Below are positions 10,262-39,295 of a DNA stretch of 64,000 bases, piece by piece. The position numbers and the translations under genes were made by a program. Origin of the DNA: a virus; the IMG/VR virus record IMGVR_UViG_3300025137_005088, positions 1 to 64,000 of that record. One strand, written 5' to 3'. The notes beneath the pieces were generated by a model. That model did no database searches. It saw only the letters and a list, made by a program, of their open reading frames with translations, and was not told where the DNA came from. The first letter of the stretch is position 1. Every line of letters begins with the position of its first letter.

Positions 10262-10375
10262 TTACTCATATATAAAAGGATCTTTGTCCTTTAGTTCTTT
10301 CATTTTCTTTTTACGCCATTTGTACTCTTTGTATTTGGTCCAAGGTAAAAGAATAAAATCGATTATTGTTTGCAT
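10262..10375 (-). CDS. Small basic protein, 37 residues
   Basis: ATG at 10375 is preceded by a perfect Shine-Dalgarno, AAAGGAG (10387-10381), with 5 bases of spacing. The frame ends at TAA 10264-10262. The peptide begins MQTIIDFILLPWTKYKEY, continues with a run of Lys and Arg, and ends KDKDPFIYE. The hydrophobic N-terminus followed by a basic helix suggests membrane association or nucleic-acid binding. It overlaps the stop of the epimerase gene by 13 bases, in keeping with translational coupling. I cannot name its function. Confidence 0.75.
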   Translation of the reverse strand: MQTIIDFILLPWTKYKEYKWRKKKMKELKDKDPFIYE

Positions 10376-11331: not shown

Positions 11332-12068
11332 ATGTACCAATATCCTAACTTTTTGAGACTAGCTATTTTAGCACTGTCTCCTAAATATTCTTTTGTATTA
11401 TCCCAATCCTCATATGCATAATTTCCAGTAACATGCCATATTGCCCAATCATTTGCTTGTACGAAGTTGTGTCCAGTGGGAAATTGTATAGGATCTAATA
11501 GGTCAACTTGTGTATTTGTTAAATGTTTAATATGAGTATTAACAAATAATTGACAAGTACTTGTGTAACCGTTAGCATACAAGTAATCTGTATTACACAT
11601 ACTTATGTTAGTTTCAGTTGCTCGCATTCCGTACATACCTGTACCACAGTTATAATCACCATGCGTCTTCAAAGGATAACCTAACCATGCATATTGTTTT
11701 ACACTTTGACATAGTTGATCTGCACCCAGGGCAAAGTGTTGTTGTACTGTTTGAGTATAATCTTTTTGTGCTACACAGTCAACATCAGTATAAAACCAAT
11801 TTTTGCCTTGTTGCATAATCTGTTGACCAATAATAAATTTATATACAAACACATGATGACTGCCTTGTGGTATGTGTACTGTGGGAACACGTGACTGCAT
11901 TGCGTGATAGCTTTGCAAGTCTAATGCTACATACAACATGGGTATACCCAACTGTTTACAACTCTCTGTCCAATTCATTGTTAGTGGTAATACCGTTTCG
12001 TCTCCCATACACCAAAACACTGTGTCTGATTCAACACTATCGCAATAATCTCTAATTGATTCTAGCAC
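11328..12068 (-). CDS. Glycosyltransferase-like protein (nucleotide-diphospho-sugar transferase type)
   Basis: I place the start at GTG 12068, six bases after GGGAG; a longer frame begins at GTG 12098 but would overlap the upstream gene by 47 bases. The protein is about 246 residues. WFYTDVDCVA holds a DxD motif for metal and nucleotide-sugar binding, and YNCGTGMYGM, QANDWAIWHVTG resemble acceptor-side segments of this fold. It lies between the epimerase and the oxidoreductase-radical SAM fusion. Donor and acceptor are unknown. Confidence 0.75.
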   Translation of the reverse strand: MLESIRDYCDSVESDTVFWCMGDETVLPLTMNWTESCKQLGIPMLYVALDLQSYHAMQSRVPTVHIPQGSHHVFVYKFIIGQQIMQQGKNWFYTDVDCVAQKDYTQTVQQHFALGADQLCQSVKQYAWLGYPLKTHGDYNCGTGMYGMRATETNISMCNTDYLYANGYTSTCQLFVNTHIKHLTNTQVDLLDPIQFPTGHNFVQANDWAIWHVTGNYAYEDWDNTKEYLGDSAKIASLKKLGYWYI

Positions 12069-14364
12069 TAGAGTCTCCCTGATAAAATGCTTGCACACTA
12101 ACAGTATTCATACTGTGTGCTTTTGCTGTAATAGGACCTAGTGTAGCATCAATACCAAAATCACTGTCACTCACTGACTGGTTAATAATTAAACTTATTA
12201 TATGTTCATAACTGTCCATAAACTCTGTATCGCCCGGTTGTATATCGATTGGTTTGCCTTTTGTAATCCAATCATTTACTATTTGTTCCAGTGTTGTGTC
12301 CTCTGTTACTTGACCAATAATATATCTATCATTATTGTCCCTATCCAAGAACCCTGCTTCTCTGCAAAGATAAACTAACCCATAAGCATCTACTACAAGA
12401 TCCACTTGCGGAAAGCCTTTGGGTAACATATTGTGTTCAGTAATGCAATGCATAGTGGGTGCATCTATACCTTTACTGAGTGCGTTTAGTGCATAACCAT
12501 AATCAATATGCAGGCGGTTTAAGTTCTCGCTTTTGCGTCTTTGTTCTACTTGTTCAAATATACGCTTCAGCTTTGTTCTATCTCCGAATGTACTAGCATC
12601 AGTTGGCTCTCTAAAGTTTTCTCTCAGTGTAATAAAGTCAAGTTGGTTACCACTTGCTACATTAATTTCTTCAATTAAATCTAATACTTCCAACAGGTCT
12701 TCCTCTAGTCCTGGAAGTATAACATAATTAAATCCGAATCGCAACTGTTTATTATTGAGCTTTTTATATTTTAAAAAGTCAATGGCATTTTGTTTTACTC
12801 TAGTAAAGCCTTGTTTGTGTTTGGTTACTTGTGTGTACACATCCTGATTACTTCCGTATAAACTTATACGCAATACTTCTAATTTAAACAAGTCTTGGTT
12901 AGCTTCAACAAACCGTTCAGTGAGCATAAATCCGTTTGTATACAAACTAAACTTAAATCCTCTTGCATGTCCAGCACTAATTAATTTCATTAAGTCAGGA
13001 TTGGTAAGTGTTTCTAATCCTCCACTTAAATAAAATCTATACGGATCGTCTTGTGGACTGGTATTAATTAAATTTAATAAATGTGGAGTAGCTTCACGCA
13101 ACTTGGACTTTTTGTAAGAGGCATTTGTATCCATGTTACGACCACAAAACGTACACCAAAACATACAGCTTTGTCCAATATGCAATCCTATTCTATGTGG
13201 ATATCCGTATTCATTTTTTAATACTTTTTGTATTGTACCACTTTGCATCAAGGGTATAATTGTATTTTTCCAATATTGACTGTTGCGTATGTCTTCAATA
13301 ATACACTGTTGTACAAAATCACTACTGCGTAATATTGAATTTATATCTAATAATTTGTGTTGACTTACCAGTAATTTTTGTTGTATAGTTTGTTGTGTAA
13401 CAAACGGAGTAGCACTGTAACAATCAATTACTTGTAAACAATGTTCTAACATTTGATATAGCTGTGGATCATATCTACTGTGTGCATAGCCTGCTGTTAT
13501 GATACTCTGTGCTAGGTATAATCCAAGTATTTGTACACGATCAAAGTCTGGACTGTGTCTTATAATATCTAAATGCTGTTCATACAGTTGTTGTACACTG
13601 GTACAAATAGTTTCAGTTATCCAACGAGTGTTGTCTGCGGTGTTGTACAATACAACACCATTTACAAATGCGTCCAGTTGTCTATCTAAACTTTTGCCAT
13701 CATCTTGAGCAAATTCATATATTTTATTATCTATCGTGATTATTCTTTTGTTAGCACTGTCACGTTCAAAGTCCACACTAACTATAGTTCCTGCAAAGTC
13801 CAATAACCAAAATACACCCCGTGGTGTTTGTGTTGTTTGCAATACTTGACAACTGTCTTTTTTAATTATTTTTCTTAATATTGTTAATACATGTGGACCT
13901 ATATCTTCTAGTACACTAATAGTAGGATCACTCACATACAGTTTACCATGTCTTTCAGTATTGTTTTCACTGTTCCATACGATATTAATTGTTTTAGGTT
14001 GTTGATCAGTTTTATCTGCAATTTCTTGTATACGATTGCTGTACTCTAATTCTAAACCAACTACCAGTTTACAATCGTTTTGTTTTGCAAGTTCTACCAA
14101 ATGGTCATGCTGTTCAAGTGAGCGAACAAACGGTTTTTCTACAAGTATGTGTCTATGATCAGATAAAAGTTCTACTGCACTGGCATAATGATCGTCTGGA
14201 CTATTAGCAATCCAAATATGATCACTGTCTAAACTAAGCAAGTTATCCACACTGCCAATTTGATTATTATGAGTATAAAACTGTGTAGTATACTCATTTT
14301 TATTTGCAACACGATCTATTATTTGAGCCCAGCGACCGCCGCCTACTATTCCGAGGGTACGCAC
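12052..14364 (-). CDS. Fusion of Gfo/Idh/MocA-type oxidoreductase and radical SAM enzyme
   Basis: From GTG 14364 (seven bases after GGAG) the protein has 770 residues; a TTG at 14391 would add nine. The N-terminal part is a Rossmann dehydrogenase: LGIVGGGRWA at the start, then VEKPF near 90, the Lys-Pro signature of Gfo/Idh/MocA enzymes that oxidise or reduce sugars with NAD(P). The C-terminal half has the radical SAM motif CMFWCTFC at about 399-406, LSGGLET in place of GGEP, and a late cysteine pair (MHCITE, YLCREAG). Both halves look complete. The radical part could act on the sugar oxidised by the first domain. Known sugar radical SAM enzymes exist, but this pairing in one chain is unusual. 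Confidence 0.88.
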   Translation of the reverse strand: MRTLGIVGGGRWAQIIDRVANKNEYTTQFYTHNNQIGSVDNLLSLDSDHIWIANSPDDHYASAVELLSDHRHILVEKPFVRSLEQHDHLVELAKQNDCKLVVGLELEYSNRIQEIADKTDQQPKTINIVWNSENNTERHGKLYVSDPTISVLEDIGPHVLTILRKIIKKDSCQVLQTTQTPRGVFWLLDFAGTIVSVDFERDSANKRIITIDNKIYEFAQDDGKSLDRQLDAFVNGVVLYNTADNTRWITETICTSVQQLYEQHLDIIRHSPDFDRVQILGLYLAQSIITAGYAHSRYDPQLYQMLEHCLQVIDCYSATPFVTQQTIQQKLLVSQHKLLDINSILRSSDFVQQCIIEDIRNSQYWKNTIIPLMQSGTIQKVLKNEYGYPHRIGLHIGQSCMFWCTFCGRNMDTNASYKKSKLREATPHLLNLINTSPQDDPYRFYLSGGLETLTNPDLMKLISAGHARGFKFSLYTNGFMLTERFVEANQDLFKLEVLRISLYGSNQDVYTQVTKHKQGFTRVKQNAIDFLKYKKLNNKQLRFGFNYVILPGLEEDLLEVLDLIEEINVASGNQLDFITLRENFREPTDASTFGDRTKLKRIFEQVEQRRKSENLNRLHIDYGYALNALSKGIDAPTMHCITEHNMLPKGFPQVDLVVDAYGLVYLCREAGFLDRDNNDRYIIGQVTEDTTLEQIVNDWITKGKPIDIQPGDTEFMDSYEHIISLIINQSVSDSDFGIDATLGPITAKAHSMNTVSVQAFYQGDSSARIN

Positions 14365-15833
14365 ACTTCTACTCCGTACTGCTTGGTCCAACGATCAGCA
14401 TCTTCTCTTGTGTTAACTAAAGGTTCTCCCTTTATGTTTAAACTTGTATTCAATAGCATAGGGCAACCTGTGTCAGCATACCAACGCTCTAGCAGTGTTC
14501 TTAGTCCAGGTGAACTTTGTTTAGTTACAGTTTGTACTCTACTTGTATTATCATAATGTATAACGGCAGGAAATAGGTCAGGATATTTGCATACACTCAC
14601 GTACTGCATAAAGTCTCCAGTCATTCCTTCAAAGTATTCACTTGCATGTTCTGCAAGGATTGCTGGTGCAAAGGGTCTGAAACTTTCTCTGTGTTTAATT
14701 TTGTTGACCAAGTCCTTAACTCCAGGTCCACGGGGATCAGCAAGAATACTACGGTTGCCAAGAGCCCTAGGACCAAACTCAGCACGACCTGAGGCCACGG
14801 CAGTGATCTTGTTGGAGTGTAACTTTTTGAGTATGCTCTCAGTTGGATATGTGCCTTCAATGTTGTGTCCTAAGTATACATGCGGCATCTCTAAGAATTG
14901 TTTTGTTTGTGCTAGTACACAACCTATTGCATTGCCAGCATCGCCTGGATTAGCTGGTACATGCACATTGGTAAAAAACTCTCCTGCCAGTGGATTAGCA
15001 ACACAATTTAATGCACAACCGCCTGCTATTATTATGTTACTATACTTAGCATCTGTCATAACGTATGCACTGCGACATAGCTCTGTGAATATTTCTTCGT
15101 ATATACGCTGAACTGCGGCGGCAATGTCAGCATAGTCTTGTGGTGTGTTTAGGTCAGGTCTCCAATCCAAACAACCTCTGTGGCAGTTGCGTTTGAATAT
15201 AGTAAATGGATGATAACTTGTTGGTATTTTTTCAATAAAGTCACGTTTGATATCTGCATACAGTCTGTCTTTGTCGCCTATAGCTGACATACCCATGAGT
15301 ATGTATTCATGTTCTTGTGGCTTTAGTCCTATACGCTGTGTCATAGCACTGTACCATATACCTATACTGTCTGGATAACTTTGACTCCATAGTTTTTTAA
15401 GTTTACCTTTTTCACCTGTCCATATGCTAACAGTATCCCATTCGCCAATTGAATCAACTACTAATATTACTGCACGATCATAAGGACCTGTGTAATATGC
15501 ATAGGCTGAGTGGCTCAAATGATGACTAGTTGTAGTGCAACTAGGTGCCTTATTGTGGAATTTGCGTATATATGTAGTAGGTGATTCCTTACCCAGTAGT
15601 GCGTATTGCTTTGCGTACAACTGACGAGTCTTTTTAAGCCACGGACGCTCATAATAGCATATTCTGTCTGGTTTACCGTACTGTAATGCTTCATCGATTA
15701 TGGATTGATTAAGATGTTTATCATTCTTAACTCTACTGTAACGTTCTGCATGGCCCGCAAACTCTAGTCCAGTGTCTGTAAACACTGCTAAACTAGCATC
15801 ATGTGCCATGCCTGTCCAACCCCAAGTAATCAA
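14346..15833 (-). CDS. Carbamoyltransferase (NodU/CmcH family)
   Basis: The protein is 495 residues, close to family length. It starts at TTG 15833, directly after the upstream TAA, with a perfect AAGGAGG (15847-15841) seven bases before. The N-terminal Kae1-like domain begins TWGWTGMAHDAS and carries the metal-binding HHLSHSA near 103-109. GGCALNCVANP follows, and the C-terminal YrdC-like region has GRAEFGPRALGNRS near 347. The family moves a carbamoyl group from carbamoyl phosphate onto a hydroxyl of a sugar or antibiotic. With the adjacent sugar enzymes this suggests a carbamoylated sugar. Confidence 0.95.
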   Translation of the reverse strand: MITWGWTGMAHDASLAVFTDTGLEFAGHAERYSRVKNDKHLNQSIIDEALQYGKPDRICYYERPWLKKTRQLYAKQYALLGKESPTTYIRKFHNKAPSCTTTSHHLSHSAYAYYTGPYDRAVILVVDSIGEWDTVSIWTGEKGKLKKLWSQSYPDSIGIWYSAMTQRIGLKPQEHEYILMGMSAIGDKDRLYADIKRDFIEKIPTSYHPFTIFKRNCHRGCLDWRPDLNTPQDYADIAAAVQRIYEEIFTELCRSAYVMTDAKYSNIIIAGGCALNCVANPLAGEFFTNVHVPANPGDAGNAIGCVLAQTKQFLEMPHVYLGHNIEGTYPTESILKKLHSNKITAVASGRAEFGPRALGNRSILADPRGPGVKDLVNKIKHRESFRPFAPAILAEHASEYFEGMTGDFMQYVSVCKYPDLFPAVIHYDNTSRVQTVTKQSSPGLRTLLERWYADTGCPMLLNTSLNIKGEPLVNTREDADRWTKQYGVEVCVPSE

Positions 15834-16373: not shown

Positions 16374-16763
16374 TTATAGTTTACCTTCTTCTCTCATTTT
16401 AGCACGAATCTTTGTCGCACTAATGTCGTGTACTGCTTTGCCTAAGTCATGTTCCGTAAATGAATATCCTACACCTCTACCATAACTAATATCAACAATA
16501 TTAGGTACTAACATAATTTCAAAGTCGTCTCCTATAACATATCCTTTGACATATAAATGTCCTGCTATATCATTAGTTACTTGATCAAAGTCAAAAGGGT
16601 TATCTAAATTACCCATTCCGGCATCAGCACCTTGTACATCTCTGACCATAATCATTACTTGTCCTGTAATTTCAAGTGCCTTTTCAAAAAGTTTTGAATG
16701 CCCTTCGTGCCACGGTTGCCATCTGCCTAACATTTGTACTGTTGGTTTTTTATAATCAAACAT
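16374..16763 (-). CDS. Nucleotidyltransferase-like protein (cytidylyltransferase fold)
   Basis: The protein is 129 residues. The nucleotide-binding motif GRWQPWHEGH (HEGH at 19-22) and the C-terminal ISATKIR (114-120) are the two signatures of HxGH nucleotidyltransferases, which join NTPs to phosphorylated substrates with release of pyrophosphate. It overlaps the kinase-like gene upstream by 8 bases, suggesting a two-step activation. Substrates could be a sugar phosphate, a nicotinamide nucleotide or sulfate; the sequence does not decide. Confidence 0.85.
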   Translation of the reverse strand: MFDYKKPTVQMLGRWQPWHEGHSKLFEKALEITGQVMIMVRDVQGADAGMGNLDNPFDFDQVTNDIAGHLYVKGYVIGDDFEIMLVPNIVDISYGRGVGYSFTEHDLGKAVHDISATKIRAKMREEGKL

Positions 16764-17181
16764 TGTTATTATCCCTGAAACGTTTTAATACTGGTTCTAA
16801 TTGTTGTGCTGTATCACTAAACCATTCGCTAACATGATAGTCACATTCAGGTGGGTTTTGAAATATTTTATTAGTATCCTCAAAACGTCCTTCTTTTATA
16901 GTATCCATCCAAACTGTGTAGTCTGGTGCAAATTCTATACGGGCTTGTTCGGTGGGGCACACAAAGTCAGCAACTGCAATTTTGCCAGCCATCTCTACTC
17001 CATCAGCCAAGTGTCGCATACGTTGTGCTTGTCTAATTCTTCCTTCGGGTGTAAAGTCCCAATCGTCATATTTTTTTCTAACTGTATCGGCGTTTATGTG
17101 TACTCCTTCAATTAGTTCTGCAAATGGTTTTGCTAGTGTAGTTTTTCCACTACCCGGCAGACCAAATATTAATATTTTCAT
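16756..17181 (-). CDS. Adenylylsulfate kinase-like P-loop protein
   Basis: The protein is 141 residues. It starts MKILIFGLPGSGKTT with a Walker A loop at 7-15. HINADTVRKKYDDWDF, then a segment rich in Arg and Gln, resembles the APS-binding part of CysC-type kinases, which phosphorylate adenylylsulfate to the sulfate donor PAPS. AVADFVCPT matches the next conserved strand. It is shorter than typical CysC (near 200). The three sulfotransferase-like genes at 25.6-27.7 kb would use PAPS. Another small-molecule kinase role is possible. The start overlaps the upstream gene by 32 bases. Confidence 0.72.
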   Translation of the reverse strand: MKILIFGLPGSGKTTLAKPFAELIEGVHINADTVRKKYDDWDFTPEGRIRQAQRMRHLADGVEMAGKIAVADFVCPTEQARIEFAPDYTVWMDTIKEGRFEDTNKIFQNPPECDYHVSEWFSDTAQQLEPVLKRFRDNNNV

Positions 17182-17692
17182 CTAGTGTATCCTTTATTAA
17201 TTTATACGGTATTCCAACACTCTCTAATAATCGTATTAGTCTTATCTCACTACCTTTCATTATTGTGTCCATTGAGTTATTATCTACAAATCTTTCTAAG
17301 TAATCTATCTGTTCATTTGTTAAATTCATATCCCATCTTTTTTGTATAGTATCGCCTGTTTTATCTTTAAACACACCACTGGCCCACAACAAATCATTCT
17401 CTACTCCATAGTTGCAGTAGTAGAATTCAAAATTCTCTTGCTCAAGACGCCACAAATGTTCTTTCCAGTCAAACTTGTAAAAACAAATGTCATTGGCATT
17501 TAGACCTTGGACAACAATGTGTTTATACTTGTTTATTATATTGTCTTTATGCAACTGTGTCAAGATATCATAATAGTTGATATAGTTTCCGTAATCCAAA
17601 GTATATACAGTATATTCATGTTCTTTGGGCAACGTGCTTAGCCATGTTGATCCCGGTTTGCTTTCACCGTTGCCAATTACTAACACTTTCAT
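17150..17692 (-). CDS. Protein of unknown function
   Basis: The protein is 180 residues and starts MKVLVIGNGESKPGSTW, a strand followed by a Gly/Ser loop as in Rossmann-like or SGNH-like folds. Central residues are rich in Tyr, Asn and Asp (DYGNYINYYD). No catalytic set is clear. ATG 17692 overlaps the upstream TGA (ATGA), and the 3' end overlaps the kinase-like gene. It may be a diverged relative of the SGNH-like proteins upstream; I would not assign an activity. Confidence 0.7.
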   Translation of the reverse strand: MKVLVIGNGESKPGSTWLSTLPKEHEYTVYTLDYGNYINYYDILTQLHKDNIINKYKHIVVQGLNANDICFYKFDWKEHLWRLEQENFEFYYCNYGVENDLLWASGVFKDKTGDTIQKRWDMNLTNEQIDYLERFVDNNSMDTIMKGSEIRLIRLLESVGIPYKLIKDTLDENINIWSAG

Positions 17693-18534
17693 CTTAGTTT
17701 TTCCAATGCTTTGCGTACAGCCTTTCCAACTTTTTTATTACCTGCCTTATTAAAATGTCCGATAAAAGTATCACTACCGTCTCTGCTTATTTTAGGATCT
17801 ATAGGAGCAAATATATGATATTTTTTATTAAGGAACAGGTCCATACTACCTTTGCCTACTCCCCAAGGATAAGGAACATCTAAACGTGTTCCATGTTCAA
17901 ATTGAGGCGTAACTTGTTCAACTTCATTTACCCATCTAAGGTAATACAATGGTGTCTGAGTTTCTCTGCATCTTTCGTCTATAAGTGTAGCACAACTTTG
18001 TACCACATGCTTGTTAGTCATACCTTGGAACATGTGTTTTCGCCACTCAGTTTCATTATTCATGTTGCCGCCGAAATCGCCTTTGCCGTTAGCACTGATA
18101 AAATTAAAATATTTGGCAGTACCTTTACCCTGATACATATCAATATTTTCTGCTCGCACGTCATACTCATGCCAAAATCTGTCACCTATATGTCCTGGTT
18201 CATTCCATGTGCATCTAGGTTCATATGTTAATTGTAATAATACATAGTCAAAGTCTTTAAGACGATTTTTATTGTAGTAGTGTTCAAGCACTGTAGCATG
18301 TTGTACTATGCCTCCGCCACTAACTGTGTAAAGTGTATGATAGTTTTTTGGATCTAAACTTTCAACCCAGCCGCCGTTTACATCAAGTGTTTCTCTACCT
18401 AATCCGTTGTCTACTTTCTTTGTAGTGCCGTCGGATTGTAGCACATCACTGTACATAATATAGGTTGGATCGTATGTGTAGCTTCCTGCACTAAAGCTAC
18501 AACCAAATACCAATACATTTTCATTGTAGTCCAT
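17689..18534 (-). CDS. SGNH/GDSL-hydrolase-like protein
   Basis: The protein is 281 residues. VLVFGCSFSAGSYTYDP at the start matches block I of SGNH hydrolases (Ser in GxSxS). The C-terminal FIGHFNKAGNKKVG resembles block V, whose His completes the catalytic set; the usual preceding Asp is not obvious. The family removes or transfers acyl groups, for example O-acetyl from sugars. It is a neighbour and distant paralogue of the gene at 18521-19180. Activity is inferred only. Confidence 0.65.
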   Translation of the reverse strand: MDYNENVLVFGCSFSAGSYTYDPTYIMYSDVLQSDGTTKKVDNGLGRETLDVNGGWVESLDPKNYHTLYTVSGGGIVQHATVLEHYYNKNRLKDFDYVLLQLTYEPRCTWNEPGHIGDRFWHEYDVRAENIDMYQGKGTAKYFNFISANGKGDFGGNMNNETEWRKHMFQGMTNKHVVQSCATLIDERCRETQTPLYYLRWVNEVEQVTPQFEHGTRLDVPYPWGVGKGSMDLFLNKKYHIFAPIDPKISRDGSDTFIGHFNKAGNKKVGKAVRKALEKLR

Positions 18535-19180
18535 CGCCTAAACCTTTTTTGATCATCTGTCCTAAAACAGTGTTTCCTTTTCTTGTAAAGTGTAAATCTG
18601 GATTATGTAAATCCTTTTTGTTCCATAGTTGTTCAATTGCGGGCTTTACATCTAAGTACTCAATATATTTATATGGGTACTTAACTCCAGTAAAGCTGTA
18701 GCTGTATGTGGGCAATCCTGTTTGTTGTGCTAGATGATCCAAGTGACTTGCACATGCTTTAGTTAGTATATCCCAACTGTTTTCCATTTGCCAAAACCAA
18801 TCACTCATTCCTTGTTGCCATTTGAAATTATATTGGTTAGCAATTTTGTTTTGCACTTTAGGTAATCCTCCTAGTCTATTATGAAATGCATTATCTATTT
18901 TCCATGCAAAAACATTGAGTCTAGATGTATAATACTCAAGTTGTTTCTGTATTACAATTCTAGGTTCCCATGTCTCTTGTATAATTATAGCACTATATTT
19001 TTTTATGTCAATTGATTCTAAACATGCACAGTAGCTCATAATGCCACCTCCAGGATGTGCATAAACTTGATATGGTTGATCAAGTTCATCATACCAGCAA
19101 TAGTCTGTGTGTAGTGTTTCTGTTGTGTTGTCGTAGCTGTACCAGCCCATACTAAAACTACAACCTAATATTAATATCAT
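18521..19180 (-). CDS. SGNH/GDSL-hydrolase-like protein
   Basis: The protein is 219 residues. ILILGCSFSMGWYSYD at the start parallels its neighbour. A GGGIMSY segment follows. The C-terminal NPDLHFTRKGNTVLG holds the DxxH expected for block V of SGNH enzymes, so this copy has a more complete catalytic set than the one at 17689-18534. ATG 19180 overlaps the upstream stop (ATGA). It is likely an esterase or acyl-transfer enzyme acting with the sugar genes nearby, by inference. Confidence 0.68.
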   Translation of the reverse strand: MILILGCSFSMGWYSYDNTTETLHTDYCWYDELDQPYQVYAHPGGGIMSYCACLESIDIKKYSAIIIQETWEPRIVIQKQLEYYTSRLNVFAWKIDNAFHNRLGGLPKVQNKIANQYNFKWQQGMSDWFWQMENSWDILTKACASHLDHLAQQTGLPTYSYSFTGVKYPYKYIEYLDVKPAIEQLWNKKDLHNPDLHFTRKGNTVLGQMIKKGLGDGLQ

Positions 19181-20451
19181 GCGTTAGCCTGTTCAACCAG
19201 TGTTTTCATATTTCCAAAGTTTACACTTTGATGGTGTGCATTTGCTACTCTAGGATCACGTAGCACTTGTAAAAAGTTTTCGTATTCAGGATGATCGGGT
19301 TTCCAACAAGCTCTAACTTCAAAGTCAATCATGTGTCCCCAATCAACTATAAGTGTAAATGTTGCTCTACTATACTTTCCAGGTCCTGACCAACGATCTG
19401 TTACCATTTGTATAAAGTCTGGTATCTCTTTATAGTTACATGTTTGTACAACAAAGTTATGACTCATTGCTCCGCTGAGTAGATTACTTGTATTGTAACT
19501 ATTTTTAGTTTTTGTGAAACTAGGTATTTGACTGTAAACATAATCTACATTACTGACTAGTTGATCCCAGTGACCTCCTAGTCTTGTTTCTTTTTCATAT
19601 GTTTCTTTTTTACCAGCATCGAAACTAAAAACAATTTGTTTAATTTGTTTATGAACTTTGCTTATACTATCCCATACCTTTGGAGTAAGCATTACACCGT
19701 TTGTTTGAAAATTAAGCCATGTGTTTGGTCTGTCAGTAAGATCCATTTCTTGTAGACGTTCTCTAAATATCTTACTACCAAAAGGATCACCTCCGCCTGT
19801 TATCCATATATCAAATTGATAATCTTTAGGCGCCTTCATTATTTCATCAAATAACTTATCTGTTAGTGATTTTCTTTGATCATATTTTTCACCCTTAGAA
19901 TGAATAATTTTACTATTTCTACAGCTAGGACAATATAAGTTACAACTTTCATCTGTACCAACTTGTATATCGTGTGGCAAGTAATTGGCTTGTGTGCTAC
20001 GGTTTTTCAATGACTCAACAATAATTGGATCTACATTATATTTTTGAGGATTGTCTATTACATTAGTTATTAGTGGCAATGCTGTTTCTGCATACTGAAT
20101 TTTAGGACAAGTGTTGTGTTTGCAATGGGGCCAGTTTGCTCCGTCATACAACTGATTACGAATTTCTTGTGCTTTAGGTCCATTCCATATCTCTTCCATT
20201 GTGCTTACATTTAGATCGCCTATGACTACTGGTAGCCAAAAAGGACAACACATGAAAACTGCACCCATATTATTAATTTCTGCTCTATTAAAAAAATAAC
20301 TGCAATATCTTCCGTTAAGATCTTTTTTAGTACCCGCAATAAGACTATCGTCTTGATAGAAACTTTTAGGTTTCCATCCTTTAGGTTGACCCTTAGGAAC
20401 AATATCAGGTGTTGAAGACTGCACTGCATCTGCTACAGAGATCGATGTCAC
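19177..20451 (-). CDS. Radical SAM protein with N-terminal cysteine-rich region
   Basis: The protein is 424 residues from GTG 20451, eight bases after AAGGA. It overlaps the upstream gene by 47 bases, long for this cluster. Before the core come YCSYFFNRAE, VFMCCPFW and CKHNTC, an auxiliary-cluster pattern that precedes the radical SAM motif CNLYCPSC near residue 170. WITGGGDPFG stands in the GGEP position. It is a distant relative of the N-terminal Twitch paralogues. The substrate is unknown. Confidence 0.88.
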   Translation of the reverse strand: MTSISVADAVQSSTPDIVPKGQPKGWKPKSFYQDDSLIAGTKKDLNGRYCSYFFNRAEINNMGAVFMCCPFWLPVVIGDLNVSTMEEIWNGPKAQEIRNQLYDGANWPHCKHNTCPKIQYAETALPLITNVIDNPQKYNVDPIIVESLKNRSTQANYLPHDIQVGTDESCNLYCPSCRNSKIIHSKGEKYDQRKSLTDKLFDEIMKAPKDYQFDIWITGGGDPFGSKIFRERLQEMDLTDRPNTWLNFQTNGVMLTPKVWDSISKVHKQIKQIVFSFDAGKKETYEKETRLGGHWDQLVSNVDYVYSQIPSFTKTKNSYNTSNLLSGAMSHNFVVQTCNYKEIPDFIQMVTDRWSGPGKYSRATFTLIVDWGHMIDFEVRACWKPDHPEYENFLQVLRDPRVANAHHQSVNFGNMKTLVEQANA

Positions 20452-21199
20452 AGCGTTTTCCTTTTGCTAATAATAATTTGTATTTGTTATATTGGCTATT
20501 ATTCCATACGTCTACAGGACTTGTATTCATATCAACTTTGCCCACAGGATTACGTTTACCAAAGTCCCACGGACACAAATACATTGTACCGTCAATATAT
20601 ACAAATGCTTCATTTTCTACTTTTTTGCAGGGTAAGTTTAAACTTTCAGTTTGGTCTTCCCATGGATGCGAGTACAGTTCAGTAATTTTAGCACATCCTG
20701 GTCTTACATTATTCCAATAATCTAAAAACATTTCCTGTTCCGCTTTAGTATCTGGCAAGTTAATCATTCTCACCTCACAATCTATCTCAGGGTGATTGTC
20801 TACAAATCTTGTAACATTTTCATATACTCTGTCAAAACTTATACCTCTAGTTTCGTCAAAAGTTTTTTTACTAAAACCATCAACACTAAAACGTATTATA
20901 TCAACAAACGGAGCAATCTTTCGTTCTGTTTTTATAGTCATAGGTTCGCCGTTACTATTAAGTTCAACTATAGCAGTAGGATCTTCTTTAATATATCTAG
21001 CTATATCAGGCAAACGTGTATCTACTAGAGGTTCGCCTAGTCCAAATGGTCTGTAGACAATACCCATATTTCTAGTATCATCTATTATTTTATAGATCAG
21101 ATCTATATCCATATGCTCTTTAGGGACTAAGTGATTAGGACAAAACCAACAAGTTGCATTACAAAATGTTGTTGTTTCTAGTTGTAGGTATTTAAACAT
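20405..21199 (-). CDS. Radical SAM/SPASM protein
   Basis: The protein is 264 residues, with a compact core. The radical SAM motif CNATCWFC is at residues 13-20, and RPFGLGEPLVD replaces GGEP. The C-terminal SPASM-type region has LPCKKVENE, MYLCPWDFGKRNPVG and CDIDLCSRC. Length and layout are those of small SPASM enzymes, many of which modify peptides, sugars or amines. It overlaps the genes on both sides (22 and 47 bases). Substrate unknown. Confidence 0.9.
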   Translation of the reverse strand: MFKYLQLETTTFCNATCWFCPNHLVPKEHMDIDLIYKIIDDTRNMGIVYRPFGLGEPLVDTRLPDIARYIKEDPTAIVELNSNGEPMTIKTERKIAPFVDIIRFSVDGFSKKTFDETRGISFDRVYENVTRFVDNHPEIDCEVRMINLPDTKAEQEMFLDYWNNVRPGCAKITELYSHPWEDQTESLNLPCKKVENEAFVYIDGTMYLCPWDFGKRNPVGKVDMNTSPVDVWNNSQYNKYKLLLAKGKRCDIDLCSRCSAVFNT

Positions 21200-22203
21200 A
21201 ATAGTTTCTCAAATTGATCCTTCGGTAATGTTGTTAACCTGATAGCTGTACTACTATATTCAGGTTGCTTACCATACAGTATCTTTTGAGAATCTAATCT
21301 ATTGATTATATCTTCTGTTGGTTCAAATACAACATGATTAATAGTTGGCTCGCTATATATTTTACAATTACTAAAATATTTATGTGCGAACTCAATACCT
21401 TCTCTGTTGCGTTGCAAACTCTTATCTACTATATAATGATGTTTATGTAAGTACTCAGCTAATCTAAGCGTTATACTACTAACACCCATTATGGGTCTAA
21501 TCTTTGTTATTTGTTCTATAGTATTTTTATGACCTTGAAGTATACCTAATCTAGCACCCGCAAGTCCCCAACTTTTACTGTAGCTAAATGCCAACAGACA
21601 GTTTTCGTATTTGCACAGATCAAAATAACTTTCTGTACAAAAGTGTCTATATGTGTTATCAATAAGCACAGTCATATTTGGATATGCTCCGCAAATATAA
21701 TCTATAAATTTTGCACTGTATACTTTACCACTTGGATTATTTGGACTACAAATATAAAATACATTAGGTCTATGTTTTTCGATAGCTTCTAATATGTCAT
21801 CTTCATTTTCACTGCATTCAAAAATATTACTTGTAAGATCTACTGCATTAGTCATAGCACCTCTGTACGTGGGTGTAATAGTTAAAAACTTGCTAGTTTC
21901 ATCTAGTGTAGCTTCAAATGTTAATCGTATAGCTTCGTCACATCCACAAGTAATTAATATGTTATCTAATGTAGTGTTGTAATAATCTGCAAACATTTCA
22001 TAATAACGATAGTAATCTTCATACTTCATTGAGCTAGACAAATCTAAAAAATGTTTTATAGCTTTTTGTATATGACCACACAATACTTCGTCTTGATTTT
22101 CGTTTCTATCTAAATTAATATACCCAGCTTCAATTTTTTCTACTCTGTTTACTAATCCGCTCCAATGTGGTCTATTAAGTTTTTTAATACTATCTCTAAT
22201 CAT
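21178..22203 (-). CDS. PLP-dependent aminotransferase, class I/II (histidinol-phosphate aminotransferase-like)
   Basis: The start is ATG 22203 (MIRDSIKKL), in an 8-base overlap with the upstream TAG behind GAGG; the longer frame to 22278 would add 25 residues inside the neighbour. The protein is 341 residues. Conserved points are ICSPNNPSG, LIDNTYRHF with the PLP-binding Asp and Tyr, and SYSKSWGLAGARLG with the Schiff-base Lys. Similar enzymes transaminate histidinol phosphate or decarboxylate threonine phosphate. Its substrate is unknown; a phosphorylated amino compound is a reasonable guess. Confidence 0.85.
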   Translation of the reverse strand: MIRDSIKKLNRPHWSGLVNRVEKIEAGYINLDRNENQDEVLCGHIQKAIKHFLDLSSSMKYEDYYRYYEMFADYYNTTLDNILITCGCDEAIRLTFEATLDETSKFLTITPTYRGAMTNAVDLTSNIFECSENEDDILEAIEKHRPNVFYICSPNNPSGKVYSAKFIDYICGAYPNMTVLIDNTYRHFCTESYFDLCKYENCLLAFSYSKSWGLAGARLGILQGHKNTIEQITKIRPIMGVSSITLRLAEYLHKHHYIVDKSLQRNREGIEFAHKYFSNCKIYSEPTINHVVFEPTEDIINRLDSQKILYGKQPEYSSTAIRLTTLPKDQFEKLLCLNTYN

Positions 22204-23539
22204 TAAACACAACCTCAGCCTCAGCTTTTTGCTCTTCAGTTCTTTCAAAATAATATTTGTGTTCAATGTCTCTACCATAGATAGGATAGTAAAAAATATC
22301 TTTGTCTTTAGGTATTATGTTTTGTACTTTTTCAGCAAAAGGTGTATCTTCAAAACTCATACACTTAACATTGATTTGATCTTGTGGATAGTCTTCAACA
22401 AGATTGCTAACCTTTTGCAACACTTTATCTATTGTAAACTCTACATGAAAACTAAATTCCAAGAACACACCTTTGTCTAATAGGTCTCTATATTTTTTCT
22501 CACCGCCTGTGCCGTTTGTGCTTATTCTAGTTTCATATCCTTTTTCAAACGCTATATCTACCAGGTCTGCTATCTGTGGATTAAGTGTTGGTTCTCCTCC
22601 GGTAATATAAAGTCTTCGACTGGGCTTTTTAGGAACATAAGGATCAACTAAAGTTAATCCATGTGTAAACTCGTCTGTGGTCATGTGTGGGCTTGCATTA
22701 TCATGTACACCATTTAGCAACTTGCCTGTGTCATCAAAAGTTGGTCCAGGACAATATGCACAATCATAATTGCAACGTAATCCAATATGAAAATGTACTT
22801 CAGCCATTGGCATTGCCATACCTCTACCCATTGCTACAATATTATCATCTGCTTTTGAAATTGGTAATTCTTCTAACTGCCAATGATTAAACTGTTTGTT
22901 TGTAACAAAATATTCTAACAATTCTTCTGTTTTTGCTTTTGGTTGTAGCAAGTCAGCATCACAAAAACATGCTTTGGTTTTACATAAAGTTTCTGTATTA
23001 AGTTCTAACTTGTCATAATCTTTCCAATGACCATCGTGACTTGCAATATGTCTCACATTTGCACAAACACCACTACAAATTTCACCAACTGGATTAATAC
23101 TAAAGTTGGTTTTGTATATAGGACAATGCCAGCCTCTCATATCCATTTGACGCATTTTTAAGGCTACCATGCTTATGCGTTTGTATTCCATTTTGTCTGT
23201 TAATACATAAACTGGATTCTCAACATACACAGGTTTTTTATAACCAATACTGCCATCATCTCGTATTAGTATGCCAGTATCGTCTGTACCAATCCATACA
23301 TTGCCATTCATATTTCTTGTTACAAGTTGTTCAACAATTTGTCCATCTTCATAACGGTTAATATTACGAGTAACTTTGCTTATGGCATAACCATGTAGTT
23401 TGTCGTCTTTATACTGTCCTGCATATGTTTTGTCAATACCTAATCCTTTGCGTTTACCATCAGTATATTCAGCAACTGAATCTTCCATCTCGCCTGGACC
23501 GGAGTAACCATTTCTCAGCATTTTTTTAGTTACTTTCAT
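22196..23539 (-). CDS. Radical SAM protein with MORN-like start and N-terminal cysteine-rich region
   Basis: The start is ATG 23539 (MKVTKKMLRNGY) behind AAGGAAG; the longer frame to 23587 lies inside the upstream gene. The protein is 447 residues. Near residue 40 YAGQYKDDKLHGYA resembles a MORN repeat, as in the gene at 24172-25605. Then come WHCPIYKTNF, EICSGVC, and CKTKACFCDADL, an auxiliary-cluster region. The radical SAM motif CNYDCAYC and YITGGEPT follow. In relatives at 3531-4505 and 27716-28753 the cysteine-rich region follows the core, so the order here is permuted. Substrate unknown. Confidence 0.85.
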   Translation of the reverse strand: MKVTKKMLRNGYSGPGEMEDSVAEYTDGKRKGLGIDKTYAGQYKDDKLHGYAISKVTRNINRYEDGQIVEQLVTRNMNGNVWIGTDDTGILIRDDGSIGYKKPVYVENPVYVLTDKMEYKRISMVALKMRQMDMRGWHCPIYKTNFSINPVGEICSGVCANVRHIASHDGHWKDYDKLELNTETLCKTKACFCDADLLQPKAKTEELLEYFVTNKQFNHWQLEELPISKADDNIVAMGRGMAMPMAEVHFHIGLRCNYDCAYCPGPTFDDTGKLLNGVHDNASPHMTTDEFTHGLTLVDPYVPKKPSRRLYITGGEPTLNPQIADLVDIAFEKGYETRISTNGTGGEKKYRDLLDKGVFLEFSFHVEFTIDKVLQKVSNLVEDYPQDQINVKCMSFEDTPFAEKVQNIIPKDKDIFYYPIYGRDIEHKYYFERTEEQKAEAEVVFND

Positions 23540-24179
23540 GGTACTCGCTTCCTTGTCTAAAAAAATCATAATCTGGATATTCTCCAACTTGAGACATTAT
23601 AAAATCTTGTTTTCTAAAAACTAAATCAACTTGATGTAAGGCACCATGTTCGTAATCCATGTTTACAATATCCCACAGTTTAAATCCGATGTGTTCAATA
23701 TCAGATATAAGCTCACCCATATATGGTAGTTGTGCTTCTACTATCATTAAATCAAACTGACAACAGGTAGCAACACCACCTCGTATTATGTCCAGTTCGT
23801 ATCCGTCAACATCAATTTTAACCAGACTGTTCCCGCCACGCCATCTAGGAGTTATATCTAAACTATCCAGTGTTGTTATTTTACTTGTATACCCAAAGGC
23901 TTTACCTTCATGTACTAAATTTAAATCTATATTTTCTTTTATTTGATTTCCTAGTGCTACATTTATAAGTTCGTAGCTGTATTTTTTATAGTTTTCGTGT
24001 ATCTCATCATTATGATTTACGTCAGGTTCGATTAATACATGATGTGCTTTTGGAAAACTAAATTGTAACCAAGGAGTGCCTGTGTGTACTCCAATGTCTA
24101 GTATATATTTTATGTCATACCCGCTTTGTTTTAAAAATTGTAAGCTATCTTTTATTCTGGGAATACGATGTTTAATCAT
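23526..24179 (-). CDS. FkbM-type methyltransferase
   Basis: The start is ATG 24179 (MIKHRIPRIK), in an 8-base overlap with the upstream TAA behind GAGG. The protein is 217 residues. YILDIGVHTGT is SAM-binding motif I; HVLIEPD marks the next strand. SLVKIDVDGYELDIIRGG is the signature of FkbM-type enzymes, which O-methylate sugars and polyketides. Its place beside a MORN-repeat methyltransferase and sulfotransferases fits glycan tailoring. The substrate is not known. Confidence 0.88.
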   Translation of the reverse strand: MIKHRIPRIKDSLQFLKQSGYDIKYILDIGVHTGTPWLQFSFPKAHHVLIEPDVNHNDEIHENYKKYSYELINVALGNQIKENIDLNLVHEGKAFGYTSKITTLDSLDITPRWRGGNSLVKIDVDGYELDIIRGGVATCCQFDLMIVEAQLPYMGELISDIEHIGFKLWDIVNMDYEHGALHQVDLVFRKQDFIMSQVGEYPDYDFFRQGSEYHESN

Positions 24180-25605
24180 TGCCAACCTCATATAGTCCTA
24201 ATTCGCCAGCTTCGAAGTTTTTAGGCTGTGGCGACCATACTCCTATTAGTGCGTTTTTATATTCCCAATAGCTTTGTGGACGCATATCCCACACTCGCCA
24301 ATTACCGTTTCTAGCAATACCCAACTGTGTTTGATCTAATGTTTCATGAGACAATATGTCAGGAGTGCAACACATTTCTTCACTAACTAAAATACCTCTA
24401 TCTGGGTGCATTAGATTCTTCACAGCATGTAGTTTTTTCCATGCAGTAGTTCCGTGTGTTGCATCATGTATTGCAAAATCTACTGGACCATACTTGTCCA
24501 TTAATTGTTTACAAGTGTCAGGTTTATAGCAATCTACACCAAGCTCTAGTTTTACTCCTTCAATTTTGCTAGCAATTTTTAGATCTTCTACTTGCTGTCG
24601 CCCTAGTGCATCTTCAGGTATACTGGTTGGTGTTAGCTTATCAACTCCAATTATAGTTGCTTGAGGGAATAGTTTTTGTAAAAATTGTAAGTGTTCTCCT
24701 CTACCAATACCAAGTTCAACAATAGTATAATTTTCATCTAATCCAAATATTTTATTTGTCCTTTTGAGATGTTTAACTATTAAATCATATATTGCACAGT
24801 ATCTTCTTTTCATTCTACGTTCAACACTTCTAGTAGGATTGTCTATCATATCAAATGCAATGCTACTGTATGTTTCAAAGTCTACCGGAGTACCTAATAA
24901 GAAATTGCTTTCGTAATCACCTTGTCCTAGCTGTTTTACCTGAGTCCTTCCGTGTGGTCTGCCACTTAAAAAATGTCCACTTGCAGTTCTAATCCAATCA
25001 CCATAGTGTGTTGTATCTCTTTTTCCTTGTACAAAGTTATATGGCGGCACATGTTTAGTTTCAGTAACAAAGTTTTTTTCTTCATGCCTAGTTACATTAA
25101 ACCCTTGCTCGTCTTTATAAGTTGTTGTTTTACCGCCTACTGCATTTACTATTGTACCATCTTCTAGTGTTCTACACCCTAGTCCATCTATGTTTGCTTC
25201 TTCTAATCCACAAGGCACATCATTTAGATACCATTGTCCTTCTCTTGGTTCGGCAATCATTCCATCTACACGACCTATAAATTTTACGCCTTTATGTACA
25301 GTTTCAAGTATGCCATATCCACAAGGTTTATTATTACTGAACTGTCCATAATACCTAGCACCAGTGGGCCATACATGCACACCAAACCCTTGTTTTTTAT
25401 CCAACAAGTTTTGCCCTATATAAGTTTCGCCATGATCCCATTCTTTAGCGGACATGCCGGTAACTTTATTGTAATCAAACTCAGCCGCACACTTTCCTGT
25501 TAATGGCAGATTATAAAATCCTAAGCCATGTTCAAACTGTGTTCCGTGTCGGTCTTGTACGACTTGTCCAATATATGTTCTGGGTGGCTTATAGTAGTCC
25601 CTCAT
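24172..25605 (-). CDS. MORN-repeat protein fused to a class I methyltransferase
   Basis: The protein is 477 residues. The N-terminal 150 contain MORN-like repeats, seen as TYIGQNLLDKKQGFG and YYGQFSNNKPCGYG, with further imperfect copies. The C-terminal domain carries a SAM-binding motif, IVELGIGRGEHL, near residue 297, IIGVDK after it, and VDFAIHDATHGT with a possible catalytic region. MORN repeats usually mediate membrane or protein binding, so they may place the methyltransferase on its target. ATG 25605 overlaps the upstream stop (ATGA). The substrate is unknown. Confidence 0.82.
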   Translation of the reverse strand: MRDYYKPPRTYIGQVVQDRHGTQFEHGLGFYNLPLTGKCAAEFDYNKVTGMSAKEWDHGETYIGQNLLDKKQGFGVHVWPTGARYYGQFSNNKPCGYGILETVHKGVKFIGRVDGMIAEPREGQWYLNDVPCGLEEANIDGLGCRTLEDGTIVNAVGGKTTTYKDEQGFNVTRHEEKNFVTETKHVPPYNFVQGKRDTTHYGDWIRTASGHFLSGRPHGRTQVKQLGQGDYESNFLLGTPVDFETYSSIAFDMIDNPTRSVERRMKRRYCAIYDLIVKHLKRTNKIFGLDENYTIVELGIGRGEHLQFLQKLFPQATIIGVDKLTPTSIPEDALGRQQVEDLKIASKIEGVKLELGVDCYKPDTCKQLMDKYGPVDFAIHDATHGTTAWKKLHAVKNLMHPDRGILVSEEMCCTPDILSHETLDQTQLGIARNGNWRVWDMRPQSYWEYKNALIGVWSPQPKNFEAGELGLYEVGND

Positions 25606-26348
25606 GCAAACTTTTCCTTGCAGTAATCGTAGAACTCTATATCCTTTGTTGTTGTTTCTTTCACTAGCTGTTTCTCGATGTTTGTTAGTTCCTCATAATT
25701 TAGATAGTCAATACCATGTTGACTTAAATTAAACTTTGTATTATGCTCATAGCTAATACTTAGATTGGGTTTTATATCATATTGCTTGGCTACTTTGTCA
25801 AACTGTTTTAAGTAATTATCCTCCATAAAAAACATGTGATCTAGTTTTTGTATATTCTCAATAGCTTGATCATATAGTTCTTGTTCATAATCGGTATCAA
25901 TTTTCCTTCCGTAATCAATACGCAAACACTGTTCATTACTAAACTTCTGATATTGTGCATACACAGGAGTTGGATGTAATCTACTACAATTAATAATCCA
26001 AGTTGTAAAGTCAATATCAGTAATACAACTATGCACATTAATCATTTCTAATTTGAAATAATTATATGCACTCATGATCCTTTTGATAGGATCTCTAAGT
26101 ATAGTAGCATACTTTACAGAATTTTGCAAGTGTTTATCTAAGTCAAAGCTAACACCATGTCCAATTATCAAACGAACATTTTCATCTTTACAGTTTTCTA
26201 TTAGAACTTTATGTTGATTGGATTGTTTAAAGTTAAACACCAACTCATGTGGAACACGCTGATAGGCAAATGTACTATTTGTTCTATACCTGTCTACTAG
26301 TGTGGTTCCTCCATTTTTAAGTATGTGAAATACTGCTAGTGTTTCCAT
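25602..26348 (-). CDS. Sulfotransferase-like protein
   Basis: The protein is 248 residues. FHILKNGGTTLVDRYR (Lys 11 to Leu 17) is the 5'-phosphosulfate loop that holds the PAPS 5'-phosphate. LRDPIKRIMSAYNYF (Arg 85, Ser 93) is the 3'-phosphate-binding motif. Both are characteristic of sulfotransferases that move sulfate from PAPS to hydroxyl groups of glycans or proteins. The gene overlaps a second copy by 13 bases. Acceptor unknown; sugar hydroxyls fit the neighbourhood. Confidence 0.85.
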   Translation of the reverse strand: METLAVFHILKNGGTTLVDRYRTNSTFAYQRVPHELVFNFKQSNQHKVLIENCKDENVRLIIGHGVSFDLDKHLQNSVKYATILRDPIKRIMSAYNYFKLEMINVHSCITDIDFTTWIINCSRLHPTPVYAQYQKFSNEQCLRIDYGRKIDTDYEQELYDQAIENIQKLDHMFFMEDNYLKQFDKVAKQYDIKPNLSISYEHNTKFNLSQHGIDYLNYEELTNIEKQLVKETTTKDIEFYDYCKEKFA

Positions 26349-27169
26349 TTATCTTCACACCTCTTATAAAATTCTATGTCTGCTTGCAAATCTAATTCAA
26401 CAAGATATTTTAAGTCTTCGTCTAATTCATGATACTTAACATACGCTAAATTGTGTTTGCTTAAATCATGTGTTGTTTCATTTGTATAGACCATTTCTTT
26501 CCATGCATTTAAGTCTAGTCTATAGTGTGCTAGTAAATCATCAAACCTAGTAACAATATCGTCTTCTTGAAAAAATACATGATCCATTTTGTTCATTACT
26601 CGTTCCCAAGTGATATTCATATTGTGTGTTTCTATTAGATTTTTTTCTTTTATCTTTTGTTGTATTTTTGTATTGTCAACATAGCTTGTGTCTTTTTCAA
26701 CGTCCCATGTAAGCACTGTGTTTAGATACATATCGTTCATTGTAAACATGTTTTTCAATGTTCCATCATTAAACCAATCGGTATGATCTACATGTTGATA
26801 CAAATAGTATTCGTACTGCTTTGTAACTGGCATCGGACGTAGCACATCTTTGTTTATGAACCACATATAAAAATCAATATCAGGACTGTCTGGATTCATA
26901 TAAAGCATTTGTGTACGATAAAAATTATACATGCTCATTATTCTACTGATAGGATCTCTAACACAAGTAATGTAAATTAAGTTGCTAGCGAGCTGTTCTT
27001 CGTAGTATCCTATTTGTACACTGTGTCCGAAAACAACTTTGGATTTGTCTGTAACTGTATCACCAAGGTCAGTGATTCTGAAACTATCGTTACTATTCCT
27101 GTATCTTTCTTTAAGTGTTGTTCCGCCTGTTTTAGGACAATGAGGAAAGATGATAATATTACTTGTCAT
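26336..27169 (-). CDS. Sulfotransferase-like protein
   Basis: The protein is 277 residues. HCPKTGGTTLKERYR (about 10-24) is the 5'-phosphosulfate loop, and CVRDPISRIMSMYNF (Arg 71, Ser 79) the 3'-phosphate-binding motif. The closing segment (DIEFYKRCEDKW) matches that of its neighbour at 25602-26348 (DIEFYDYCKEKF), showing tandem duplication followed by strong divergence. It is probably PAPS-dependent, with PAPS perhaps supplied by the APS-kinase-like protein at 16756-17181. The acceptor is unknown. Confidence 0.86.
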   Translation of the reverse strand: MTSNIIIFPHCPKTGGTTLKERYRNSNDSFRITDLGDTVTDKSKVVFGHSVQIGYYEEQLASNLIYITCVRDPISRIMSMYNFYRTQMLYMNPDSPDIDFYMWFINKDVLRPMPVTKQYEYYLYQHVDHTDWFNDGTLKNMFTMNDMYLNTVLTWDVEKDTSYVDNTKIQQKIKEKNLIETHNMNITWERVMNKMDHVFFQEDDIVTRFDDLLAHYRLDLNAWKEMVYTNETTHDLSKHNLAYVKYHELDEDLKYLVELDLQADIEFYKRCEDKWKH

Positions 27170-27719
27170 TGTACGTTCCAGTCTGAATTTTTCTTTTACA
27201 CTTTCTTAAAAAATTGTAATCTATGCTGTTGGCTACTTGATAGTCTCCTCGTAGTGCAGTATCTAGTTCATTGCTTTCAAATCTAGTGTTAAAATTTATA
27301 GTTTTACAATCTGTTTTTAAATACTTGCTAAGTTTCTCTGCAAGAAAGTCTAAAGTAAAATCTTTATGATTCATAACTTGTTCTTTTGGGTAAAGCGATC
27401 CTTTAGTAGGGTTCCATGTGATATAATTAATAAACCCTATAAATTTGTAATTTTTTTCTACTAGTTCTTTAGTTTCGCTAGTGTGTATATCTAAACTTTT
27501 GGTAATTATATTTCTTTCTTCAAACACTAACTCTTCAAAAGTTTTTCCTTTTGAATCACCATCACTATCTAAAAAATCCATTGTTTGTTCTATAGCTCTG
27601 TCAAATGGATCTCTTAATATTAAAATGTCAGCATTCTCTGTTACTAGCTCTAAGTTGTATATGTTAGCAATCTGTTCATGCCAGCAGTTTGGAATATAGT
27701 GTAATTTATTCATACTCAT
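27159..27719 (-). CDS. Sulfotransferase-related protein lacking the 5'-phosphosulfate loop
   Basis: The protein is 186 residues. LILRDPFDRAIEQTMDF (Arg 36) corresponds to the 3'-phosphate-binding motif of its two neighbours, and the C-terminal SIDYNFLRKCKRK matches their ends. The glycine-rich GGTTL loop is absent: the N-terminus starts with MSMNKLHYIPNCWHEQ. It may be a degenerate copy, a binding partner of the active enzymes, or a protein with altered chemistry. Tight overlaps on both sides (ATGA and 11 bases) suggest it is still translated. Confidence 0.7.
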   Translation of the reverse strand: MSMNKLHYIPNCWHEQIANIYNLELVTENADILILRDPFDRAIEQTMDFLDSDGDSKGKTFEELVFEERNIITKSLDIHTSETKELVEKNYKFIGFINYITWNPTKGSLYPKEQVMNHKDFTLDFLAEKLSKYLKTDCKTINFNTRFESNELDTALRGDYQVANSIDYNFLRKCKRKIQTGTYNDK

Positions 27720-39287: not shown

Positions 39288-39295
39288 TATTTATA
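39288..39295 (-). promoter_or_regulatory. T4-type late promoter box TATAAATA
   Basis: An exact TATAAATA on the minus strand overlaps the stop of the giant gene upstream. Transcription would begin about 39281 and the gene at 38666-39268 starts 20 bases after the box. In T4 such boxes are recognised by gp55 with sliding-clamp coactivation, and a gp55 gene is present at 61363-62241. Confidence 0.85.

Follow-up and report, generated by a model that had tools for sequence, protein, structure and literature searches.

A proposed compact PAPS synthase with a NadM-like candidate ATP sulfurylase in a marine phage, and its relatives in SAR11 bacteria

Introduction

Bifunctional PAPS synthases, such as human PAPSS1/2 and the Aquifex Sat–APS kinase (2gks), combine an adenylyltransferase with an adenosine 5'-phosphosulfate (APS) kinase on the route from sulfate to 3'-phosphoadenosine 5'-phosphosulfate (PAPS). 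Here, we examined 64,000 nucleotides (positions 1 to 64,000, "the window") of the IMG/VR record IMGVR_UViG_3300025137_005088, i.e., most of the 67,065 bases recorded for this marine virus of bacteria. Two overlapping minus-strand genes (17181-16374) probably encode a split, compact PAPS synthase with a non-canonical ATP sulfurylase, which would supply two sulfotransferase-like proteins of the same phage, as judged from sequence comparison and structural models. These genes are designated P0001 (16756..17181, 141 amino acids), a short APS-kinase-like protein, and P0002 (16374..16763, 129 amino acids), a nucleotidyltransferase resembling NadM and proposed as the ATP sulfurylase. The sulfotransferase-like proteins are P0004 (26336..27169, 277 amino acids) and its paralogue P0003 (25602..26348, 248 amino acids), both also on the minus strand.

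The pair resembles the known bifunctional enzymes in its association of adenylyltransferase and APS kinase, in the proposed reaction sequence, and in a kinase fold that fits their APS-kinase domain (Z 16-17.6), but differs from them in that the adenylyltransferase is small, NadM-like, and outside PF01747, the short kinase has no lid of the usual kind, and the two genes are split in the window phage. Compared to the APS kinase CysC (PF01583, TIGR00455), P0001 shares the P-loop, the D and R of DGDxxR, the F and R of LGFSxxDR, the P of FISPY, and the overall fold, while it is shorter, carries the variants WDFSxEGR (WDFTPEGR in the window) and FVCPT, and shows, towards the C-terminus, GRFEDTN where CysC has the lid DPKGLYKKA. 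P0002 shares with archaeal-type NadM (MJ0541) the N-terminal GRxQPxHxGH half, NPF, and ISxTxIR-type motifs, but its C-terminal half is shorter, with YGRxVGY and an additional conserved arginine (R41), and its relatives are linked to sulfur genes. Like canonical Sat (PF01747), it shows the motif order PxHxxH-type, GRD-type, and ISGT/ISAT-KIR, and P0002-type genes stand where sat would be expected, beside aprBA (a feature of context, not of sequence); unlike Sat, it is about one third of the length and has no significant sequence match to that family. Finally, P0004 shares motifs resembling the 5'-phosphosulfate-binding (5'-PSB) and 3'-phosphate-binding (3'-PB) motifs, as well as its best fold matches, with Sulfotransfer_2 and heparan-sulfate sulfotransferases (PF03567; 4ndz, 5t03), although identity is only 12% and the P0004 model has a predicted local distance difference test score (pLDDT) of 55.

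Results and discussion

A searched sequence on its own was not decisive for P0001: its match to PF01583 (APS_kinase, 30.8 bits, Pfam cut-off 21.1) ties with the generic AAA_18 and AAA_33 models, and its score against the equivalog model TIGR00455 (21.4 bits) lies far under the cut-off of 138.7, as for a divergent relative and not an equivalog by that model. The family placement was settled instead by a profile of 22 relatives compared with the PDB, for which 2yvu, an APS kinase, was matched at E 6.1e-15 and nearly all other leading full-domain matches were APS kinases or PAPS synthetases. Across these 22 sequences aligned to 2yvu, no variation is seen at D32, R35, F43, or P76 and hardly any at R48; these are the APS-kinase positions listed above for CysC. 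In the window, the P-loop GLPGSGKT is encoded at 17140-17163 and the D32-R35 segment (DTVR, the counterpart of D and R in DGDxxR) at 17077-17088, both on the minus strand. Two phage relatives (L243 and L287) carry LGFSPEDR or LGFTANDR, i.e., closer to the canonical motif than WDFTPEGR. The fold was assessed on a viral kinase–nucleotidyltransferase fusion (L277) that is 59% identical to P0001 and was modelled with a pLDDT of 83.7: its kinase domain fills the list of structure matches, so that the result covers this domain, and the first 29 rows contain nothing but APS kinases and PAPS synthetases, with APS kinases reaching Z 17.6 and a root-mean-square deviation of 2.1 over 137 residues (VIA-align). 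Gluconate kinase follows behind at Z 15.2. An earlier note, made from the letters of the window alone, had read P0001 as a shortened APS kinase that makes PAPS, and had named a better structural fit to an unrelated kinase as the outcome that would speak against it; on the L277 model APS kinases came first, and profile, fold, and genomic context strongly support the reading. Based on family profile and modelled fold, P0001 is a shortened APS kinase.

The constant partner of this kinase is a nucleotidyltransferase and not a sulfotransferase, as indicated by both gene order and gene fusions. Among viral relatives of the kinase, the nucleotidyltransferase gene lies directly downstream in 77 of 80 loci; the two are fused in phages of Stenotrophomonas, Xanthomonas, and Clavibacter and in 78 further IMG/VR loci, and fusions occur in SAR11 as well. 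Within the window, the P0002 gene follows that of P0001 with an overlap of 8 bases, and the adjacent genes match the two halves of phrog_10255 in order (P0001 with 9e-36 at 2-115, P0002 with 2e-18 at 124-228). The earlier note had left the P0002 gene out, although it belongs with the kinase, and had instead paired the kinase with a sulfotransferase; that pairing was incomplete, the constant partner being the nucleotidyltransferase and sulfotransferases standing beside only a few phage pairs. Annotated phage records (INPHARED) yielded kinase relatives in five isolates only.

P0002 contains the motifs GRWQPWHEGH (16698-16727), YGRGVGY (16464-16484), and ISATKIR (16404-16424), all read from the minus strand. 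By sequence, P0002 stands outside the canonical ATP sulfurylase family, with no significant profile match and no Pfam match to PF01747. The similarity in motif order to canonical ATP sulfurylase may reflect either descent within a superfamily or convergence. We infer from comparative evidence that P0002 would adenylylate sulfate (ATP + sulfate → APS + pyrophosphate), representing a NadM-like type of ATP sulfurylase that ATP-sulfurylase models do not recognise, that P0001 would convert APS to PAPS by phosphorylating its 3'-OH, and that the PAPS would be used by P0004, P0003, and any host sulfotransferase to sulfate an acceptor, with a benefit to the phage.

Other features vary around the pair in the phage loci. 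In about 16 of the 80 loci, including L017, L020, L024, L032, and L035, the kinase and nucleotidyltransferase genes are separated by a gene for a membrane protein of about 70 amino acids (DUF2061, PF09834, 1.3e-13). DUF2061 was considered as an independent link to sulfate activation and discarded, no such link being found in the genes that surround it in gammaproteobacteria. In L054, L058, and L077, a further nucleotidyltransferase lies directly upstream of the kinase, a divergent paralogue with 29-31% identity to P0002, and a NodU-type carbamoyltransferase is found in 16 of the phage loci L002-L081.

Close relatives of the pair also occur in SAR11 genomes, where the kinase is associated with sulfotransferases. 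Among 148 such genomes, which are incomplete and were counted irrespective of relatedness, kinase and sulfotransferase (defined as a PF00685 match) were both detected in 60, the kinase only in 9, the sulfotransferase only in 18, and neither in 61 (odds ratio 22.6, Fisher p 1e-15). The odds ratio was about 19 among genomes of ≤1.0 Mb, and 38 once genomes with an apsK-like gene or CysD were removed. The kinase and CysD were never found in one genome of the 148, and 10 of the 18 genomes with a sulfotransferase but no kinase had CysD or an apsK-like gene instead, in line with mutual replacement. In four genomes, a sulfotransferase confirmed by two Pfam families stands directly beside the kinase or the fusion: L214 is an operon of kinase, nucleotidyltransferase, and sulfotransferase with overlapping ends, L215 and L216 show kinase–sulfotransferase, and L217 fusion–sulfotransferase.

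For the window phage, the candidate users of PAPS are P0003 and P0004, in which the earlier note had recognised both PAPS-binding motifs of sulfotransferases. This was confirmed: on the minus strand, P0004 carries the 5'-PSB-like HCPKTGGTTL (27113-27142) and the 3'-PB-like RDPISRIMS (26933-26959), and P0003, 34% identical to P0004 with both motifs aligned, carries HILKNGGTTL (26298-26327) and RDPIKRIMS (26070-26096). P0004 scores 22.3 bits against PF03567 (Sulfotransfer_2), just above the cut-off of 22, and its profile weakly matches heparan sulfate 2-O-sulfotransferase (0.007), while P0003 alone stays under the PF03567 cut-off with 13.8 bits. The top 14 VIA-align rows for the low-confidence P0004 model are all sulfotransferases (best Z 8.7, to 4ndz); since its best Foldseek matches, also sulfotransferases, reach only E 0.7, the assignment of P0004 relies on VIA-align, motifs, and Pfam. 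Sulfotransferase-like character is thus supported for P0003 by motifs and for P0004 by motifs and predicted fold. The acceptor would most likely be a glycan, perhaps a surface glycan, because the nearest solved relatives are heparan-sulfate sulfotransferases and the neighbouring genes are of glycan type; surface decoration by phage sulfation is plausible. The adjacent P0005 (27159..27719, minus strand, 186 amino acids), in fixed synteny with P0003 and P0004, had been proposed as a third sulfotransferase, which was not borne out: beyond the string RDPFDR (27597-27614), it showed no 5'-PSB motif and no Pfam match, and its profile aligned with that of P0003 and P0004 over 14 columns at a probability of 1.5%.

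Whether the pair and these sulfotransferases form one module is a separate question, as the PAPS made by the pair could instead go into sulfur assimilation or to sulfotransferases of the host. Most pair-bearing phages lack sulfotransferases of the P0003/P0004 type, and 8.4 kb separate the two sets of genes in the window; however, both lie on the same strand within the same gene array. INPHARED yielded no relative of P0004, and close ones turned up on only a few IMG/VR contigs; of six such records, three also carry the kinase, the other three being fragments. Moreover, different sulfotransferases are encoded close to the pair in other phages, one confirmed by Pfam (L034) and one recognised by motif (L243), and no PAPS-reductase-like motif was found near the pair. 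We thus regard a pair unconnected to P0003 and P0004 as possible but rather doubtful, and a PAPS synthase supplying them as the probable arrangement.

The best evidence for the function of the pair comes from SAR11 genomes, among them those in which the nucleotidyltransferase occurs without the kinase. P0002 is 59-61% identical to nucleotidyltransferases linked to aprBA: with aprA identified by a TIGR02061 match, homologues lie ≤4 kb from aprA in 32 SAR11 genomes, and the kinase-less form adjoins aprA or aprBA in 26 of the 30 genomes listed. The typical layout is nucleotidyltransferase, membrane protein, aprB, and aprA, with further neighbours that resemble suyAB, xsc, and a TauE exporter (named from sequence). 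Canonical ATP sulfurylase was detected in 9 of the 148 SAR11 genomes, and P. ubique has been reported to carry aprBA without cysDNCHIJ and sat (PMC5069961). As APS is the compound common to aprBA and a PAPS synthase, ATP sulfurylase is the parsimonious activity for this nucleotidyltransferase, and the family may be the enzyme believed to be missing from the marine SAR11 bacteria. We lean towards the broader view that it represents a third, independently evolved ATP sulfurylase beside Sat and CysDN, which would fill the missing sat step of sulfite oxidation in SAR11 and, with a minimal APS kinase, form a compact PAPS synthase in many marine phages, with sulfotransferases of their own in at least one lineage.

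A different APS-related role for the nucleotidyltransferase, e.g., adenylyl transfer from APS to phosphate, with the kinase making PAPS from host APS, would be compatible with the kinase-less form at aprBA and with the production of APS from sulfite by AprBA in SAR11. We judge this improbable, as it is at odds with the fusion and the constant pairing, which are seen both in phages and in those SAR11 genomes that have no detected aprA; most SAR11 genomes with the fused form are of this kind, and APS there must come from sulfate.

Similarly improbable is that the pair activates another compound such as a sugar, in the manner of HldE, with the kinase yielding a sugar phosphate and the nucleotidyltransferase a nucleoside diphosphate sugar. 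The order of kinase then nucleotidyltransferase, gluconate kinase as the next-best fold, a GmhA-like isomerase adjoining the pair in three SAR11 loci, and kdsA/kdsB-like genes (named from sequence) near the kinase in about 16 of the phage loci L002-L081 all fit such a role, the last also suggesting envelope glycans. However, GmhA, which belongs to the same glycan islands and served as a control, showed no genome-wide association with the SAR11 kinase (odds ratio 1.6, p 0.23), whereas sulfotransferases did; APS kinases outrank sugar kinases in both sequence and fold, and the linkage of the nucleotidyltransferase to aprBA would be left unexplained. HldE-like sugar activation was rejected on the negative GmhA control. 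Very improbable, lastly, is an NMN (nicotinamide mononucleotide) adenylyltransferase serving synthesis of nicotinamide adenine dinucleotide (NAD), as in NadR or phage NAD-restoring pathways: NadM-type enzymes are the nearest solved relatives of P0002 (MJ0541, 1.2e-9) and phages do encode NMN adenylyltransferases, but P0002 reaches 19.5 bits against a NadM equivalog cut-off of 181.2 and aligns mainly over its N-terminal half, kinase searches return APS kinases and not the NadR ribosylnicotinamide kinase, and the genomic context is that of sulfur metabolism.

Several observations weigh against a PAPS synthase composed of P0001 and P0002. For the nucleotidyltransferase, these are the kinship to NadM just described and the comparison with canonical ATP sulfurylase by hhalign (22 columns aligned, probability 5.5%); for the kinase, the absent lid and the inexact forms of LGFSxxDR and FISPY. 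The SAR11 association comes from incomplete genomes counted regardless of relatedness, and it has exceptions: 9 kinase genomes have no PF00685 match, and 8 genomes with a sulfotransferase (G024, G057, G059, G064, G073, G087, G089, and G146) have no detected PAPS source, i.e., no kinase, apsK-like gene, or CysD, gaps being possible. A table in the same study that reported the absence of sat gives cysC for several P. ubique strains (PMC5069961), which calls for caution over kinase and sulfate genes there. Many SAR11 split pairs also adjoin genes for a Rieske oxygenase and for an enoyl-CoA hydratase, a neighbourhood that a PAPS synthase does not explain. Most phage pairs, finally, have no known PAPS user nearby, and the PAPS may there feed host enzymes or unrecognised ones.

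The Rieske-associated SAR11 loci have a recurrent layout: in L091 and similar loci, the split pair is flanked by a metF-like gene and the Rieske oxygenase and, on the opposite side, by the enoyl-CoA hydratase, with dimethylglycine-dehydrogenase-like genes nearby.

Among the open-access papers searched, none described the pair or its role in making PAPS, and none a NadM-like enzyme acting as ATP sulfurylase. While the reactions are known, what is apparently new is an unrecognised enzyme family for one step and its viral setting. If the proposed activity is correct, it would name a candidate for the sulfate-releasing step listed as missing in SAR11, which are among the most abundant marine bacteria. 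Virome surveys give phage "adenylylsulfate kinase (cysC)" as an auxiliary metabolic gene; under the same condition, some of these reports of sulfur assimilation would instead concern half of a PAPS-making sulfation module. Sulfation of surfaces by a phage-encoded system would be a new sort of viral modification of the cell envelope or virion.

Gene content of the window

All four open reading frames (ORFs) of the earlier note (P0001, P0003, P0004, and P0005) are present on the minus strand at the coordinates it gave, within a dense array of overlapping, same-strand genes that extends over ~9.5-39 kb of the window. A large part of this array (9506-33376) resembles a glycan or peptide modification cluster with several radical S-adenosylmethionine (SAM)/SPASM proteins, and includes a carbamoyltransferase (14346-15833), an FkbM methyltransferase (23526-24191), an aminotransferase (21178-22278), and an epimerase (10363-11340). 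Judged by sequence, a 779-amino-acid protein (12052-14391) combines a Gfo/Idh/MocA-like oxidoreductase with a radical SAM domain. Two further proteins (24172-25605 and 22196-23587) have N-terminal parts resembling MORN repeats, unusual for phages, fused to methyltransferase-like and radical-SAM-like parts, respectively. A closely similar array occurs in L089, a contig from a record titled Gammaproteobacteria MAG MED685, and the likeness suggests that this contig probably comes from a phage and was placed in a bacterial metagenome-assembled genome (MAG) during binning. Elsewhere, the window encodes a T4-type late sigma factor, an SbcD-like (gp47-like) gene, and baseplate genes, and its structural region includes one ORF of 3804 amino acids (39291-50705).

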